Positions 3,326 to 52,393 of a DNA stretch of 64,000 bases are shown here, piece by piece. Source of the DNA: Bifidobacterium catenulatum DSM 16992 = JCM 1194 = LMG 11043. GTDB taxonomy: Bacteria > Actinomycetota > Actinomycetes > Actinomycetales > Bifidobacteriaceae. The stretch is from positions 1 to 64,000 of the forward strand of contig NZ_AP012325.1 of assembly GCF_001025195.1 (NCBI RefSeq), read 5' to 3'. Both the position numbers and the translations under genes were made by a program. The notes under the pieces are model-generated. The model did not search any database, had not been told where the DNA came from, and saw only the letters and a program-made list of their open reading frames with translations. How positions within the stretch are numbered: the stretch's first letter is position 1; each line of letters starts with the position of its first letter.

Positions 3326-4528
3326 ATGTATATTTCCCGCCTAGCACTCGACCACTACCGTTCCTGGGAACATTGCGTGCTCGACTTCGAACCGGGAATC
3401 AACATTCTGCAAGGAGCCAACGGACTCGGCAAAACCAATATTGTGGAAGCCGTCGAAGTGCTTTCCACGGGATCAAGCCATCGCACGTCATCATCATTGC
3501 CACTAATCGAAAAAGGGTGCACTTCGGCTACCATCCGAGCCAATGTGGAAGACGATGAAACGCAACACACCTACGAAGCGACCATCGTGGCACGAGGCGC
3601 GAATCGGGCGCGAATCGATGGCGGAAAATCGCAATACATGCGCGATCTCATCGGACGTACGCCCTCCGTCTCCTTCACCCCCGAAGATCAGCGTTTGGTG
3701 GCAGGCGATCCAGCAACCCGACGTAACTTCATCAACCAGGCCGCTTCCCTGCTACTCCCCCACTACGCGCAGCTGCTGCAACAATTCACGCATGTGGCGA
3801 AACAACGTACGGCACTGCTCAAACAACTCGGCGACGGCACGAATCTCGACCCGCAATACAGCCAGCAGACGGTTTTAAGCGGACTGGAAATCTGGACGGG
3901 ACAATTCATCGATCTCGGCATGAGACTGACACGTGAACGCAACGATGTCATCGCACGTCTGGGGGAGCCTTTCGCGCGAATCTACGCGTCTTTGGCAGGC
4001 GACGACGAGCGGGCGGCGCTCTCATACGAGCCGTCCTTCGACGAAGTGATGCTGTTCGACGATCCGAGCGCGGAAATCAGCCGTCATTTCCAGCGCATCT
4101 ACCCGGGCGAAGTGGCACGCGGACAGAATCTGATCGGCCCGCATCGCGACGATCTGACCTTGCTGCTCAACGACATGCCCGCCCGTGAATTCGCGTCCAA
4201 CGGCGAGATGTGGACCATGGCTTTGGCGCTGAAAATGGCGCTATATGAAGCGGTTTCCGCGCAATTCGAAAGCAAGCCGATCGTGATTCTCGATGATGTG
4301 TTCGCACAGCTTGACGAATCCCGTCGTGGGCAGATCCTCGATTTTGCGATGCGGCAGGATCAAGTGCTGATCACCGTCGCCGCGGCAAGCGACATTCCAC
4401 AAACGGACGCCGTGCACGCGCATGTGATTGACGTGGCCGCGTTGCGTCGACAATCGCAAGATGGCGGCGATGACGATTTGGCGGCGATGATGGCGCAGCT
4501 TGCGGCAGGAAGGGAGACTGACCGCTGA
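3326..4528 (+). CDS. recF: DNA replication and repair protein RecF
   Basis: RecF is an SMC-like ATPase that loads RecA at gapped DNA and helps restart stalled forks. The protein has 400 residues. It begins with the family-typical MYISRLALDHYRSW, has Walker A GANGLGKT near residues 30-37, the late signature GPHRDDL near residue 270, and the Walker B-like IVILDDVFAQLDESR near residue 320. Its TGA stop shares one base with the ATG of the next gene, which implies translational coupling. There is a 164-bp gap to dnaN with a possible terminator. Confidence 0.97.
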   Translation: MYISRLALDHYRSWEHCVLDFEPGINILQGANGLGKTNIVEAVEVLSTGSSHRTSSSLPLIEKGCTSATIRANVEDDETQHTYEATIVARGANRARIDGGKSQYMRDLIGRTPSVSFTPEDQRLVAGDPATRRNFINQAASLLLPHYAQLLQQFTHVAKQRTALLKQLGDGTNLDPQYSQQTVLSGLEIWTGQFIDLGMRLTRERNDVIARLGEPFARIYASLAGDDERAALSYEPSFDEVMLFDDPSAEISRHFQRIYPGEVARGQNLIGPHRDDLTLLLNDMPAREFASNGEMWTMALALKMALYEAVSAQFESKPIVILDDVFAQLDESRRGQILDFAMRQDQVLITVAAASDIPQTDAVHAHVIDVAALRRQSQDGGDDDLAAMMAQLAAGRETDR

Positions 4529-11126: not shown

Positions 11127-12497
<1,371 letters not shown>

Positions 12498-46340: not shown

Positions 46341-48788
46341 ATGACAGATGCGATTCGACAGTTTCCTCGTAAAAAAGCTCGTACACTGCGGTTTTCCTGC
46401 GGAGCTCCGCGTTCCGCGCGTGTGATTGCAGACGGTTCCCGTGCATTGTTCCTGCGTTCCGACGGATCGGAAGACACCGTCACCTCACTGTGGATGAGCG
46501 TGATCGACGAAAACGGCAACGCCAGCGAAATGCTGCTCGCCGATCCACGCACGCTGCTCGCCGATGCCGACGCCGAAGACGTTCCCGCTGAGGAACGGGC
46601 GCGTCGCGAACGTGCACGCGAAGGTGGTTCCGGAATCGTCGGCTATTCCACCGACGCAAGCGGCAACCGCGTGACCTTCACCATCAACGGACAACTCTTC
46701 CTCACCGACATCGCAGTCGGCGTGACGCGAGCTATCGCCATAGAAGAAGACGAGCTCAAGCCGGTACTGAATCCGCGTATCAGCCCTGACGGGCAGCATG
46801 TCATGTACACCACCGGCACCTATCTGGTGAATGTCGATCTTGCCGATACCGCTTTCGACACGGCTTTCGGTGACGACGATTGCGAAATCGGAGACGCGAT
46901 TTCGGTAGTCGCTTCAATCCCGCAAGACGGCGAATGGAAGATCGGCTTGGCGGAATTCGCAGCAGGCGAGGAAATGGACCGCTACGACGGCTTCTGGTGG
47001 TCTCCCGATTCCAAATATGTGCTGTTCGAAACCTACGATGAATCCCCGGAACCAATCTGGCATCTTTCGGACCCAGCTAATCCTGCGAATCCTGCACGAT
47101 CCAACCGCTATCCGCAAGCATTGACCGCCAATGCCAACGTGCGACTGACCCTGCTGGAACTTGGCTTCGACAACGACAACTGCTGCTACGGGGCAATCGC
47201 GAATGAGGTGCAGTGGGATCATGAAACTTACGAATATTTGGCCGCAGTCAGCTGGACGAGCGGGCATGAGCCGATCATCCTCGTGCAAGACCGACTCCAG
47301 CAGCACGATCAGGTGCTCGCCATCCACGTGGGCGAACCGATCGTTACCATGCGAGACGCGGAAAACGGATTTACCGACGATGAAGGCGATCAAGTCGAAA
47401 CCTTCTCCATCGCCATTCCCGAATATGCCGAAGGTGAACGCCCGGGCAGCACGCGCGTGCTCGAAAAACACAGCAACGCCTACTGGCTCGATCTGATCCA
47501 CGGCACGCCCGCATTCACGCCGAATGGACGCCTGATCTGCGCGATGAACGACATGGATGCCGACACGAACCGCCTTACCGTCGATGGCGTGCCCTTCACG
47601 CCGGCCGGACTGCAGGTGCGCGAAGTGCTCAATGTGACCGACGACGACGTGCTCTGCGTGGTACAGCGCACCCCCGAACTGTTGTCTGACGACAGCCTGC
47701 CATTCCTCTGGCAGTCCAACGCCGCCGATCATGACGCCCGCAGCTTCGACGTGGTGTCGATCCGCTATGACGGCACATGGGAACCCCTCACCTACGCGCC
47801 CGGCCAGTGGACCATGTCTCGCGCAGGCAACGGCTGCGTGGTGACCGGACGCGGCATGGATGATGCAACTGTGCAAATGCAGCATTGCATGAACATCGTC
47901 ACAACCGACGAAAATGGTACAGACGTGGCGTCAATGGTGGTCTCACCAATCGAAAACCATGCCGAAACCCCCGGATTCACGCCGAACGTACACTTCACCC
48001 GACTTGGCGAACGTGGCCTGTACACGGCAATCGTGCTCCCCTCGGCTAGCAGCGAATACGCGCATGCCGACACTCTGCCGGTGCTCATGAAGCCTTACGG
48101 CGGTCCAGGATTCCAGCAAGTCGTCGAAAACCAATCCTTCTACTGGGATGCGCAATGGTGGGCCGACCAAGGCTACATCGTGGTCACCGCCGACGGACGC
48201 GGCACCACCGGACGCGGGCCGAAATGGGACCGTGCCATCTACGAAACCATGAAATCCGTGACGCTCGAAGACCAAGTAGACGCCGTACGTGCGCTACCGG
48301 AAGCGTTGGCAACACTGGCTGCGCAAGAAAACAAGGAATCCTCGGAAACCACCATCCCGCAACCCGACCTCAACCGCGTAGCCATGATCGGCTGGTCGTA
48401 CGGCGGATTCCTTTCCGCGCTCGCCGTGCTGGAAGCGCCGGAAACCTTCGCTGCGGCCTGCGCGGGCGCACCCCCGACCGACTGGACGCTGTACGACACG
48501 CACTACACTGAACGCTACTTGGGTCTTGACCCGGCCGTGTACGAACGTAACAGCATCATCTCCGACGCGCCTCAGCTTGATCGCCCGCTCATGCTCATTC
48601 ACGGATTCGCCGACGACAATGTGACGATCGCGCACAGCCTACGCCTGAGCCAAGCGCTGATGGCGGCCGGACGCAAGCACACATTCCTGCCGCTGACCGG
48701 CATCACGCATATGACCAATGACGAAACCGTCGCTGAAAATCTGCTGATCCTGCAGCGCGATTTCCTCGCGGAAGCATTGGAACGGTAG
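46341..48788 (+). CDS. S9 family peptidase (dipeptidyl peptidase IV-like)
   Basis: This serine peptidase of the prolyl-oligopeptidase family cleaves proline-containing dipeptides or small peptides. The 815-residue protein has a beta-propeller-like N-terminal half (about 1-560) and a C-terminal alpha/beta hydrolase domain. The nucleophile is near residue 685 in GWSYGGFLS, with Asp near 756 in HGFADDNV and His near 788 in THMTND. No signal peptide is seen, so it acts in the cytoplasm. The ATG is moderately supported. Confidence 0.9.
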   Translation: MTDAIRQFPRKKARTLRFSCGAPRSARVIADGSRALFLRSDGSEDTVTSLWMSVIDENGNASEMLLADPRTLLADADAEDVPAEERARRERAREGGSGIVGYSTDASGNRVTFTINGQLFLTDIAVGVTRAIAIEEDELKPVLNPRISPDGQHVMYTTGTYLVNVDLADTAFDTAFGDDDCEIGDAISVVASIPQDGEWKIGLAEFAAGEEMDRYDGFWWSPDSKYVLFETYDESPEPIWHLSDPANPANPARSNRYPQALTANANVRLTLLELGFDNDNCCYGAIANEVQWDHETYEYLAAVSWTSGHEPIILVQDRLQQHDQVLAIHVGEPIVTMRDAENGFTDDEGDQVETFSIAIPEYAEGERPGSTRVLEKHSNAYWLDLIHGTPAFTPNGRLICAMNDMDADTNRLTVDGVPFTPAGLQVREVLNVTDDDVLCVVQRTPELLSDDSLPFLWQSNAADHDARSFDVVSIRYDGTWEPLTYAPGQWTMSRAGNGCVVTGRGMDDATVQMQHCMNIVTTDENGTDVASMVVSPIENHAETPGFTPNVHFTRLGERGLYTAIVLPSASSEYAHADTLPVLMKPYGGPGFQQVVENQSFYWDAQWWADQGYIVVTADGRGTTGRGPKWDRAIYETMKSVTLEDQVDAVRALPEALATLAAQENKESSETTIPQPDLNRVAMIGWSYGGFLSALAVLEAPETFAAACAGAPPTDWTLYDTHYTERYLGLDPAVYERNSIISDAPQLDRPLMLIHGFADDNVTIAHSLRLSQALMAAGRKHTFLPLTGITHMTNDETVAENLLILQRDFLAEALER

Positions 48789-49111: not shown

Positions 49112-50377
49112 TCACGCCTGCACTTGCTCAAACAATCCCGGCGAATCGTCGATGACAGTCACCGGAATATACGCGAAAAGCGTCCAACTGCCGTCCTGCG
49201 CGGACGCGGTGAGCGTGCCCTGATATGATTCAAGTTGCTTCTTGAACGAGGCAAGCCCATGGCCGCCAGGAAGTTCGTTATCGTGCCCGTCAGCTCCGGC
49301 TATCCCTTCTTTCATGGGATTGATTTGAGTGATTTCAATGGCATTCGGTCTAAGTATCACCGAAAGATCAACCTTGCTTCCCGGGGCAGCATGACGAGCG
49401 ATATTCGCATAGATTTCACGCAGCAGATTATTGACAAGCTCGGCGGTCTCCCGCGATGCACTCGGTTTGCCACCCGCACAGTGCCGTATGGACGTGATTT
49501 CGAAGCCGAGTTTACGCAAACGTCGGTCGCCGTCGTTCATGGTGGCTCGCAGCAGATTGGCCAGCGCTTCGCCGTCAGCATCGCCGGGGAGGACGGTGGC
49601 ATCCATATTCAATTCGTCGATAACGCGATGCACATTCGTCAATGCGAAAAGAATGTATTCGTTGATCTGACGCCAGTCTTCGGCGTCGGCTGCATCGGCT
49701 GCGCTGACAGGGCCTCCGGCAGTGGCACTAGGGCTGCCTGAAACGCCGCCAACATGCCGTTGTGCCACAAACGCCGCCGCCGACAAATCGCCCGTCACCG
49801 CATCGTGAATAGCGTCGGCAATGCGTGCGCGGCTTTCCAACTCCTGCAACCGATTCTTGTTTTGCGCCGCTTCAAAACGCTTCCGCGTCGTTTTCTCGCT
49901 CCAACTCAACGCCCTGCCGAGCAGCAGCACCATGGCATACATGCTGATCATGGAGACAGGGTTAGTGCCTGGGCCAGGAGGCGAAATCAGCAGGATAGTA
50001 GCAATGTAATATGTGAACAGCGCTGCCGCGATAATGACATTGGTACTGTACGCAAGCATGCCATAAGCGTAGAGATGCGTGGGAAGAGAATTACCCGAAC
50101 TTGCGTAAGAGGTAAACAGATCACCAGCATAGGCAATCACAATAATCGCCACCGACATGCTTTTTGGAAATAATGGAGATACCACGAGCGCTGCAACCAG
50201 CATCGCAATCCAAACCACGCCAGATATGTCGGTAGGCGGTTCGTAACAAACTCCATATGCGGTCCATACGAGCACGATCAACATGATGGTAAAACGGATT
50301 GGATGCCACAAATTCGGATGCAACGTGCGCACATGATTCCGCCACGTAATGTACTGAGCTGCAGGTTTAGAACGCAT
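49112..50377 (-). CDS. Polytopic sensor histidine kinase
   Basis: The kinase has 421 residues: about five to six spans in residues 28-155, a coiled-coil-like linker, the phospho-acceptor His191 in AIHDAVTGDLSAAAF (HisKA_3-type) and a C-terminal ATPase domain with EIYANIARHA (N-box) and GGHGLAS (G-box). With no large extracellular domain, the membrane region is the likely sensor, as in peptide-receptor kinases. Its ATG lies 11 bases inside the regulator gene's end, so they are translationally coupled. GAGG precedes the ATG. Confidence 0.9.
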   Translation of the reverse strand: MRSKPAAQYITWRNHVRTLHPNLWHPIRFTIMLIVLVWTAYGVCYEPPTDISGVVWIAMLVAALVVSPLFPKSMSVAIIVIAYAGDLFTSYASSGNSLPTHLYAYGMLAYSTNVIIAAALFTYYIATILLISPPGPGTNPVSMISMYAMVLLLGRALSWSEKTTRKRFEAAQNKNRLQELESRARIADAIHDAVTGDLSAAAFVAQRHVGGVSGSPSATAGGPVSAADAADAEDWRQINEYILFALTNVHRVIDELNMDATVLPGDADGEALANLLRATMNDGDRRLRKLGFEITSIRHCAGGKPSASRETAELVNNLLREIYANIARHAAPGSKVDLSVILRPNAIEITQINPMKEGIAGADGHDNELPGGHGLASFKKQLESYQGTLTASAQDGSWTLFAYIPVTVIDDSPGLFEQVQA

Positions 50378-51023
50378 TGGACCTCACCCACAATGCCACT
50401 GCCTGACGCGAAGTCTTACAGTTGAGTTTCCTTAAAATACTTTGTATATGCTTGCGGATGGTGGCTTCGGAAATCCTCAAACGCTCGGCAATCTCTCGAT
50501 CAAGCATGCCCTCCGCACACAAAGAAATAATCTGCTCCTCACGAACAGTGAGCGAAGGCGCAGTCTCAGCCTCCCTGCTAATACGCAAATTAGCCAACGC
50601 AGGCGTCTCAAACCCCTCCATCACCTCGCCATTGCACATACGCATAATAATCTGCGCCAACTGGTCGGCATTCTCCTTACCAACCAAACCCTGCGCACCA
50701 GCCTCCACCAGTTTGTCCCGATAACTCTTGATGGAAAAACTCGTCGCACCAAGAATCGGCATATGCTTGCCCATCAAACGCAACCGACGACAAGTAGCAG
50801 GCCCCTGCAAACCCTCCATCGACATATCAAGAATCAACAAACTGACATTGCTGTTCGCGTCCTGACAGCGTTCTATCGCCTCATCGCCAGAAGTCGCAGT
50901 CCACACCACATATGCGGTCGGCACTTTGCAGGCAATGACGGCACTGAGCGAATCCAGCGCTCGCGGATCATTGTCGACCAGCGCGATGCGATGAATCTTA
51001 GGATGCTTTTCCGACGTGGTCAT
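50367..51023 (-). CDS. LuxR/NarL-family response regulator
   Basis: This 218-residue regulator has a receiver domain (residues 1-130; Asp18/Asp20 in VDNDPRA, phospho-acceptor Asp66 in LLILDMS) and a LuxR-type helix-turn-helix (about 150-210; LTVREEQIISLCAEGMLDREIAE). It is the partner of the kinase encoded next to it. The ATG at 51023 lies 7 bases after the stop of a small peptide gene, whose last codons carry AAAGAAAG as the possible ribosome site, so translation is probably coupled. Confidence 0.92.
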   Translation of the reverse strand: MTTSEKHPKIHRIALVDNDPRALDSLSAVIACKVPTAYVVWTATSGDEAIERCQDANSNVSLLILDMSMEGLQGPATCRRLRLMGKHMPILGATSFSIKSYRDKLVEAGAQGLVGKENADQLAQIIMRMCNGEVMEGFETPALANLRISREAETAPSLTVREEQIISLCAEGMLDREIAERLRISEATIRKHIQSILRKLNCKTSRQAVALWVRSNAF

Positions 51024-51030
51024 TATGCGA

Positions 51031-51192
51031 TCACTTTCTTTTCCCACACAGCCATTGCAGCCATGTTGGGCAGTTGGGATTCGCGGCAGTGGAGATATCG
51101 TCGTTGCCGTCAACGGGAGTTGTTGCATACGCATATGCTGGTGTGATGGTGAGAGACAACGTCACCACCATCAGTAGTGAAACACATTTCAT
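51031..51192 (-). CDS. Small secreted peptide, candidate signal of the adjacent two-component system
   Basis: This 53-residue gene product begins MKCVSLLMVVTLSL..., a signal peptide with a likely cleavage after AYAYA (residue 23). The mature part is about 30 residues, acidic at first and then NPNCPTWLQWLCGKRK. The two Cys enclose a nine-residue Trp-rich segment (CPTWLQWLC), as in disulfide-ring peptides, and the end is strongly basic. The gene precedes the regulator by 7 bases on the same strand. No family is recognised. A reading frame continues upstream, but the signal peptide supports the ATG at 51192. The role as autoinducing peptide is inference. Confidence 0.6.
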   Translation of the reverse strand: MKCVSLLMVVTLSLTITPAYAYATTPVDGNDDISTAANPNCPTWLQWLCGKRK

Positions 51193-51231
51193 GCTTCCAT
51201 AGTATGCGAGGATGACGCGCGGGGTGGCGAT

Positions 51232-51272
51232 ACAGTGCGTGACGCACTGTTGATACATCGTTATACAGCGCA
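51232..51272. promoter_or_regulatory. Inverted repeat operator between peptide gene and hydrolase gene
   Basis: ACAGTGCG-TGA-CGCACTGT at 51232-51250 is a perfect 8-bp inverted repeat, centred about 49 bases before the peptide ATG. A third half-site TACAGCGCA follows at 51264-51272. In the 130-bp divergent region it could serve the response regulator as an autoregulatory site. Confidence 0.5.
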
Positions 51273-51322
51273 CATGCTTGTGCTTAGTTTTGTCTTGGCT
51301 TTGTTCGCCTAAGATGGAATTC

Positions 51323-52393
51323 ATGACTATCACGCTCATCGATGAGGCGCGCTACGACGCCGAAATGGACGAAACGGTACTGCCTGCGCTGCGTAACTGC
51401 ATGGCGGAGGGCTGGATGGAACCTGCCACCGTTGATTGGGACGGCAATATGCTACCTAAGCTGGAGCATTCTGGACGGTTGCATTACTACTGCTACGACG
51501 CGCACAAATTCGACGCATTGCGTGAAGACGGCGCATCGGGCATATTCCGCGGTGCGGTGGTGATTTCGCACGGATTCACCGAATTCGGACGCAAATACAG
51601 CGAAATGGTGTGGTACTTCCTACTGGCCGGCTATTCCGTATGCGTGTTCGAACATCGCGGACATGGCCATTCCACGCACGACATGAGCAACCCGAGCTTG
51701 GTATGGATCGACGATTGGCGCCGGTATGTGGCCGATTTCGCCACGTTCGCGCAGACCGTGGGTCGCGAAGTGGCTGGAGATGGCCCAATGTACTTGTACT
51801 GCCATTCCATGGGCGGCGGCATCGGCGCGGCCGTGCTGGAACGCTACCCGTCATTGTTCGACAAAGCGGTGCTGTCCGCGCCGATGATTGCGCCGGTGGT
51901 CGGCATGCCAACGTGGATTGCACGCATTGTGGTCGGCGTGATCTGCGGGCTTGGCTTCGGCAGATCGCGCGTGTTCGGCCATACCGATTTCGACGGAAAC
52001 CTCAATCCCGACGATTACAAGGGAGCTTCCGAAGCACGCATCCGCTGGTTCCACAAACAGCGCTTGACAGACAAGTCATGCCAGACCAATGCTGCCACTT
52101 TCGATTGGGCAAACCAGGCGATGGCGCTTTCCCGAGCTGTGCTCAAACCCGACATGTGCGGAGCCATCGAAGCCCCGGTATTGCTATTCCAAGCCGGCCG
52201 CGACGTGTGGGTGCTCAACGGACCACAAGATGACTTCGTTGAACGTGTGCGAGAAGGTGGCGGTTCCATCGAAAAAGTGCGGTACAGCCAGTCATTGCAC
52301 GAAATTTTCTCCATGCCGAATGCCGTGCTCGAATCATATCTTGACAAAATCCTCGTTTTTTTGGCGGCACCGAACGCAAGTTTGGCGGAATAA
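51323..52393 (+). CDS. Alpha/beta hydrolase (lysophospholipase/monoacylglycerol lipase-like)
   Basis: This 356-residue enzyme has the oxyanion motif ISHGFTEFG near residue 80, EHRGHGHS, and the nucleophile Ser in YCHSMGGGIG near residue 160; a variant of GxSxG with Cys at the first position. Asp and His are expected near residues 290 and 320 (GRDVWVL, SLHEIF). Substrate is unknown, perhaps lysolipid or monoacylglycerol. The ATG at 51323 lacks a clear site; an ATG at 51314 is also possible. It is divergent from the peptide-regulator cassette and shares its upstream region. Confidence 0.85.
   Translation: MTITLIDEARYDAEMDETVLPALRNCMAEGWMEPATVDWDGNMLPKLEHSGRLHYYCYDAHKFDALREDGASGIFRGAVVISHGFTEFGRKYSEMVWYFLLAGYSVCVFEHRGHGHSTHDMSNPSLVWIDDWRRYVADFATFAQTVGREVAGDGPMYLYCHSMGGGIGAAVLERYPSLFDKAVLSAPMIAPVVGMPTWIARIVVGVICGLGFGRSRVFGHTDFDGNLNPDDYKGASEARIRWFHKQRLTDKSCQTNAATFDWANQAMALSRAVLKPDMCGAIEAPVLLFQAGRDVWVLNGPQDDFVERVREGGGSIEKVRYSQSLHEIFSMPNAVLESYLDKILVFLAAPNASLAE

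Follow-up and report, generated by a model that had tools for sequence, protein, structure and literature searches.

The window analysed here is a stretch of 64,000 nucleotides from Bifidobacterium catenulatum DSM 16992 (contig NZ_AP012325.1, positions 1 to 64,000). Three genes follow one another on its minus strand: a small peptide precursor gene, then a response regulator gene, and then a sensor histidine kinase gene (Table 1). Seven bases separate the peptide stop codon from the regulator ATG, and the regulator and kinase genes overlap by 11 bases. The initial annotation had described a 53-codon gene placed in this way before a LuxR-type regulator and a polytopic kinase, and each of these points was borne out, the regulator by its GerE and Response_reg domains and the kinase by its predicted membrane helices. 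The precursor, MKCVSLLMVVTLSLTITPAYAYATTPVDGNDDISTAANPNCPTWLQWLCGKRK, can be divided, in a division of our own, into a leader (MKCVSLLMVVTLSLTITPAYA), a spacer (YATTPVDGNDDISTAANPN), a loop (CPTWLQWLC), and a tail (GKRK). The signal peptide that was also claimed for it stands as a prediction from composition, namely from the uncharged run at residues 3-17 and the AYA at 19-21.

An EamA transporter gene also lies upstream, and genes for an FHA protein and a tRNA-ribosyltransferase (TGT) are found further out (Pfam, window neighbours). Within the window, no maturase or dedicated exporter gene adjoins the peptide gene. A palindrome, CAGTGCGTGACGCACTG, is present upstream of the peptide gene at about 51230-51250 and is broken in close relatives.

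Table 1. Features of the peptide-regulator-kinase locus and its flanks, in window coordinates.
Feature	Coordinates	Strand	Basis
Cys-loop peptide precursor gene, 53 aa + stop	51031..51192	-	ORF translation; family HMM match 1.1e-21 (the window row is a seed)
Putative secretory-type leader, residues 1-21, ending AYA	51130..51192	-	Uncharged 15-residue run at 3-17 and AYA at 19-21; authors' own division
Loop C41-PTWLQWL-C49 (Cys-x7-Cys)	51046..51072	-	Codon conservation; Cys spacing among type I peptides
GerE (NarL/LuxR-type) response regulator	50367..51023	-	Pfam Response_reg and GerE
Polytopic sensor histidine kinase	49112..50377	-	Sub-threshold HisKA_3/HATPase_c; invariant H/D/N/G; structure model; hydropathy; core matches
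Intergenic region between the peptide gene and the divergent alpha/beta hydrolase gene	51193..51322	.	No operator identified
Alpha/beta hydrolase gene, upstream, divergent	51323-52393	+	Pfam
S9/DPP-IV-type peptidase gene, downstream, convergent	46341-48788		Pfam

The regulator matched the Pfam families Response_reg (1.5e-15) and GerE (5.8e-15). Its best NCBIfam models are NarL-type, with scores far under the cut-offs of these models. The kinase matched HisKA_3 and HATPase_c in Pfam, both only below cut-off. In an alignment of 30 kinases, H191-D192, N325, G374, and G387 are invariant. The predicted structure of the kinase, for which 30 sequences served as input (mean pLDDT 78, pTM 0.46), shows about six helices of membrane length feeding a long kinase helix and is without an outer sensory domain, and hydropathy gives five clear peaks. 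A structure search with this model returned many kinase cores, with a bacteriophytochrome at rank 1 followed mostly by DesK entries. A 96% identity to the kinase of Bifidobacterium catenulatum subsp. kashiwanohense JCM 15439 supports the species label of the window. Peptide-sensing kinases often consist of membrane helices without an outer sensory domain.

A conserved peptide tied to one kinase-regulator type

Conservation of the peptide gene extends across the family, as does its link to one type of kinase-regulator pair. When 112 genomes of the genus were searched with the peptide by tblastn, the peptide itself, four strong matches (in G040, G019, G037, and G060), and many weak ones were returned. 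A kinase search over the same genomes found kinases directly beside many of the weak peptide matches. A peptide HMM was then built from 19 aligned peptides chosen by their Cys-loop pattern, and the invariant C, P, W, and C of the seed alignment are partly due to this choice. Two seeds (L041 and L049) were taken from kinase-centred loci, and the peptide search also listed both places (E 0.23 and 0.71).

The peptide-only HMM gave 36 matches at E<=1e-4 in 32 of the 112 genomes. The DNA around all 36 was scanned with kinase and regulator HMMs, and a kinase or regulator of the same type was found within 250 bp in 35 of them and within 150 bp in 33. Matches that were neither seeds nor near-copies were adjacent to a kinase or regulator without exception (11/11). 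The linkage of a small precursor to a kinase that characterises peptide pheromone and two-component systems is present when viewed from the peptide side (35/36, and 5/5 in other genera). The sole exception, L100 (G026:C36, peptide 1988-2140), is a strong type I peptide on a 3.7-kb contig that carries no kinase. The L100 peptide adjoins a lipoprotein-like gene of a recurring group described below. Eight of the 17 matches between 1e-4 and 1e-2 were adjacent (seven within 150 bp and one at 210 bp), as was one of the eight inspected from among the many that were weaker still.

The same pairing occurs across differing gene orders, which argues for a functional link. The 35 adjacent loci comprise 11 peptide-regulator-kinase operons, as in the window, 22 loci in which the peptide is encoded on the opposite strand and converges on the 3' end of the kinase gene, and 2 with other arrangements (L084 and L086). 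Convergent peptide frames abut or overlap the kinase 3' end, and an antisense artefact of that end was considered as their origin; it is ruled out by convergent loci without overlap, such as L083, L087, L095, and L101, and by the 11 of 35 loci that are one-strand operons. Chance or an annotation artefact is likewise ruled out by the HMM matches, the adjacency in 35 of 36 cases, and the five of five in other genera.

These other genera were reached in a search of 189 Bifidobacteriaceae genomes, 39 of which had a match at E<=0.001. Five of the 39 belong to four genera other than Bifidobacterium (G513, G518, G524, G527, and G538; 5/77 provided that the 189 include all 112 genus genomes). Each of the five peptides has such a kinase or regulator next to it, with only the regulator seen in G524, at a contig end. 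Their loops (CPAWLSWLC, CPAFLSWLC, CPEWLQWYC, CPPVLQWLC, and CPPPIQWLC) all retain the opening C-P, the closing Cys, and a W at the second position ahead of that Cys. The initial annotation had looked to a co-occurrence of peptide and kinase across Bifidobacterium, and the pairing is indeed found in many species and in five genera. Beyond the family, no convincing match came from a sample of the order (396 genomes, E<=0.01), which gave matches in four genomes outside the genus (G441, G218, G150, and G223), none of them a loop ending a short frame, or from a sample of the phylum (396 genomes, E<=0.001), where the peptide of the window was the sole match. At most 16 candidates were scored per genome in these two samples versus up to 59 in the genus search, so distant or diverged relatives can have escaped.

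How often do such kinases have the peptide? The peptide lies beside all seven kinases of at least 50% identity. Apart from the window, it adjoins the kinase in G019, G040, G037, G060, G001, and G069. Among the best 72 kinase matches, taken in match order, 28 have a two-Cys peptide beside them, a count in which three loci (L113, L115, and L118) keep only a leaderless loop-bearing fragment; the 44 without a peptide include a kinase fragment at a contig end (L061) and two loci that may hold decayed loops (L156 and L160). The kinase of L050 is a near-twin of that of L084, yet no peptide is detectable beside it, and a lipoprotein-like frame instead of a peptide adjoins the sister kinases of L039 and L047. 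The kinase lineage is therefore wider than the peptide. A kinase standing without the peptide in most relatives had been named as a point against a functional pair; this is the case among the best 72 matches but not among the close relatives, where the peptide is present in 7/7.

Leaderless or Cys-deficient loop frames were also seen near such kinases in L112, L113, L115, L118, L133, and L087 (around 4273-4335). These are apparently decaying systems.

Loop designs, kinase tree, and neighbouring sequences

The consensus of the type I peptides consists of a secretory-type leader, a variable spacer, and CPxWLxWLCG (Cys-x7-Cys). The Cys spacing is seven in 32 of the 33 listed type I peptides, a set chosen by pattern and HMM. 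Among five close relatives, all 11 codons of NCPTWLQWLCG keep their amino acid, and the sole loop-codon change is silent. Amino acid changes occur at 3 of the 21 leader codons and in 9 of the 19 spacer columns, one of the nine being an in-frame one-codon indel. The GKRK tail of the window peptide corresponds to GKGK in the other four. The Trp-rich loop between two Cys, whose conservation had been put forward as a check, is constant in these relatives while the spacer varies.

Other loop designs are found beside related kinases. Type II loops are CIPLPWWHC and CVPFPWHHC (L040 and L044), with the pattern CxPxPWxHC. Type III loops follow C-x4-H-x2-G-x-C, with all four named residues invariant (for example CPAWMHALGWC, CNAVMHWLGLC, and CPPWAHALGLC), and occur at nine loci where the peptide precedes the kinase; at E<=1e-10, a type III HMM matched exactly the 9 genomes of these loci among the 112, all seeds or seed copies. 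Type IV loops are ACSFMPWLCHH (L158 and L167) and HCPPWIPPQYCS (L146).

A kinase tree of 91 rows was made by a quick method that left 34 of 88 inner branches open. Five fragments shorter than 280 residues were dropped (L047, L153, L168, L171, and L172), and L054, L061, L103, L140, L144, duplicate loci, and the second kinases in L080 and L087 were left out. The nine type III kinases form one clade (SH-aLRT 100). Type I kinases are spread yet clustered, with 17 changes versus a mean of 30.2 with shuffled labels and none of 500 shuffles as low, a contrast that is inflated by near-copies. Covariation between loop and kinase is weak over 34 pairs, with r=0.15 for the sensor half (p=0.003) and r=0.12 for the catalytic half (p=0.025) when ancestry is ignored.

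An operator shared by the peptide and regulator promoters was not clearly above control in 19 convergent loci. The mean best 20-bp match was 14.7 in these loci versus 14.0 for promoters of other loci and 14.1 for control stretches of the same locus. A best match of at least 16 was reached in 3/19 convergent loci versus 2.6% for promoters of other loci and 7.2% of 475 same-locus stretches. Two loci, L087 and L089, have a suggestive shared promoter stretch. In L087, a near-identical CGGTxGTAAAACGTGAA stands at 12154 and 14342, with one copy ahead of the regulator gene and one ahead of the convergent peptide gene, and is a candidate operator.

Lipoprotein-like neighbours were present at 12 of the 45 loci examined. 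They form a linked group of proteins of roughly 220-290 aa, lipoprotein-like where read and often multi-copy, which lie beside L084, L086, L087, L093, L099, L100, L104, L108, L109, L113, L115, and one more locus. None of the five that were tested had a Pfam match.

Possible roles of the peptide

What does the peptide do? The most plausible working model is that of a peptide-signal cassette, and the sequence comparisons make it probable that the product of the gene is a precursor from which an extracellular peptide signal for the adjacent kinase is made. The varied gene orders, the constant loop and varying spacer, the short leader, the other loop designs, and the membrane-helix input half of the kinase together argue for a ligand-receptor pair. 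The precursor would be exported via the Sec route, after which the leader would be removed, and the two cysteines would close a nine-residue Trp-bearing ring by a disulfide. The candidate exported form is CPTWLQWLCGKRK, with or without the spacer. The ring, perhaps cut free of the variable spacer, would be detected by the membrane portion of the neighbouring kinase, as linkage and loop conservation suggest, and the kinase would phosphorylate the GerE-type regulator. Kinase-to-regulator phosphorylation is general for such pairs. The regulator may then alter transcription, perhaps of the peptide operon itself, a step for which no support was found.

The main rival is a membrane-tethered modulator in the style of MgrB acting on PhoQ, in which the leader would stay as an anchor and the outer Cys loop would tune or inhibit the kinase of the same cell, with nothing diffusible. 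MgrB is a small protein with a single membrane helix, whose essential pair of outer cysteines is in contact with its kinase (PMC10576120). The peptide nearly always adjoins the kinase, as such a modulator might, and [AV]xA, which lies between the uncharged run and the loop in 28 of the 45 listed peptides, is absent in the other 17. However, the longest uncharged runs of these 45 peptides are short (median 14 residues), closer to signal peptides than to membrane anchors, the loop starts a median of 24 residues past the run, and the leader ends in AFA or AMA in several family members. A diffusing ring is favoured over a tethered one because of the short runs and these AFA or AMA sites, and we regard tethering as unlikely.

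Another possibility, to which we give little credence, is that of an antimicrobial peptide whose synthesis is under two-component control or which induces through it. A small peptide with two Trp, two Cys, and a basic tail would suit such a role, and so would the ABC transporter or lipoprotein-like neighbours at some related loci. The part that follows the leader, however, has no net charge, and no export- or immunity-like gene is among the window neighbours (S9 peptidase, alpha/beta hydrolase, EamA, FHA, and TGT). A search of the window's genome for the recurring lipoprotein-like family also gave no convincing match (best E 0.016). It is highly improbable that the frame is untranslated and its conserved stretch a regulatory RNA or a chance frame: the peptide has no Pfam or NCBIfam match, but its similarity at the protein level extends across genera, varied gene orders, and either strand relative to the kinase, and among the five close relatives the loop-codon change is only silent and the single indel is in frame.

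An extracellular signal read by the adjacent kinase remains the preferred reading, and the family is probably an undescribed one that serves for talk between bifidobacteria or to self. A broader proposal, which we find evenly balanced, is that Bifidobacteriaceae have their own class of unmodified, Sec-exported disulfide Trp rings (CPxWLxWLC, CxPxPWxHC, and CxxxxHxxGxC), each sensed by the particular kinase encoded beside it, without a maturase or dedicated exporter. If true, this class would give species-specific signalling among bifidobacteria. Bifidobacteria are major infant-gut colonisers and are widely used as probiotics. Kinase-linked peptides that can be made by ordinary synthesis would allow direct probing of the traits under cell-cell signalling, and the family would provide a tunable input for engineered strains.

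Comparison with known signalling systems

LuxR regulators of Bifidobacterium are included in the counts of a published survey (PMC3466318). No description of such a peptide in bifidobacteria was found in the excerpts of open-licence PubMed Central papers that were covered (preprints excluded; PMC2679651 included). The quorum sensing that reviews name for Bifidobacterium is AI-2 (LuxS) (PMC4748050, PMC9179481, PMC9611604, PMC7876071). LuxS/AI-2 is chemically and genetically unrelated to the Cys-loop peptide.

Agr (AgrBDCA) combines a small precursor, a ring-shaped signal, and a polytopic kinase in one operon, and its signal has one thiolactone Cys. The window system is alike in its small precursor, its putative ring-shaped signal, and its polytopic kinase in the same operon, but its peptide has two Cys rather than one thiolactone Cys, and its regulator is GerE-type rather than LytTR-type. 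AgrB (PF04647) had 0 matches in the window's genome in a search whose control was weak (one of 14 control genomes gave a signal, and none was over cut-off). The window system does not qualify as Agr because no AgrB was found and the regulator is GerE-type. Two LytTR-type matches stand elsewhere in the window's genome, at G000:C1:1962856-1963122 and 2009992-2010258 (L216 and L215), and are a possible second peptide-signalling lead. At L139 (G040), a related kinase-regulator pair follows a hydrophobic peptide of 46 aa (1661-1801) whose only Cys lies close to its end (SSICPILS), and this ending resembles those of AgrD.

MgrB-PhoQ is similar in that a tiny protein, hydrophobic at its N terminus and bearing two outer Cys, acts on a kinase (PMC10576120). 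The window system differs from it in that the peptide gene adjoins the kinase gene, the hydrophobic run is shorter, and the spacer is long, as well as in its Gram-positive host and in a kinase without an outer domain.

ComQXPA (ComX-ComP-ComA) of Bacillus likewise has a small precursor with a C-terminal Trp, a histidine kinase, and a GerE-type regulator, encoded by adjacent genes with overlaps and with a variable peptide (PMC4008528). A kinase and a GerE-type regulator adjoin a Trp-bearing small precursor in the window as well, a resemblance of architecture only. ComX carries an isoprenylated Trp (PMC5331326), and the ComQ isoprenyl transferase is absent among the window's neighbouring genes (Pfam, neighbours only); with no ComQ among the neighbours, the window system does not qualify as ComQXPA. 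The two-Cys loop and secretory-type leader also set the window peptide apart from ComX, and its host belongs to the Bifidobacteriaceae, whereas the comQXPA census gives no locus outside Firmicutes (PMC4008528). The peptide pheromone cassette of the initial annotation, which had been likened to Agr- and Com-type quorum systems, is upheld in part: the failure to find AgrB, a regulator that is not LytTR-type, and the lack of ComQ among the neighbours speak against placing it in Agr or ComQXPA, but the linkage, the peptide at 7/7 close loci, and the constant loop speak for a peptide-signal cassette.
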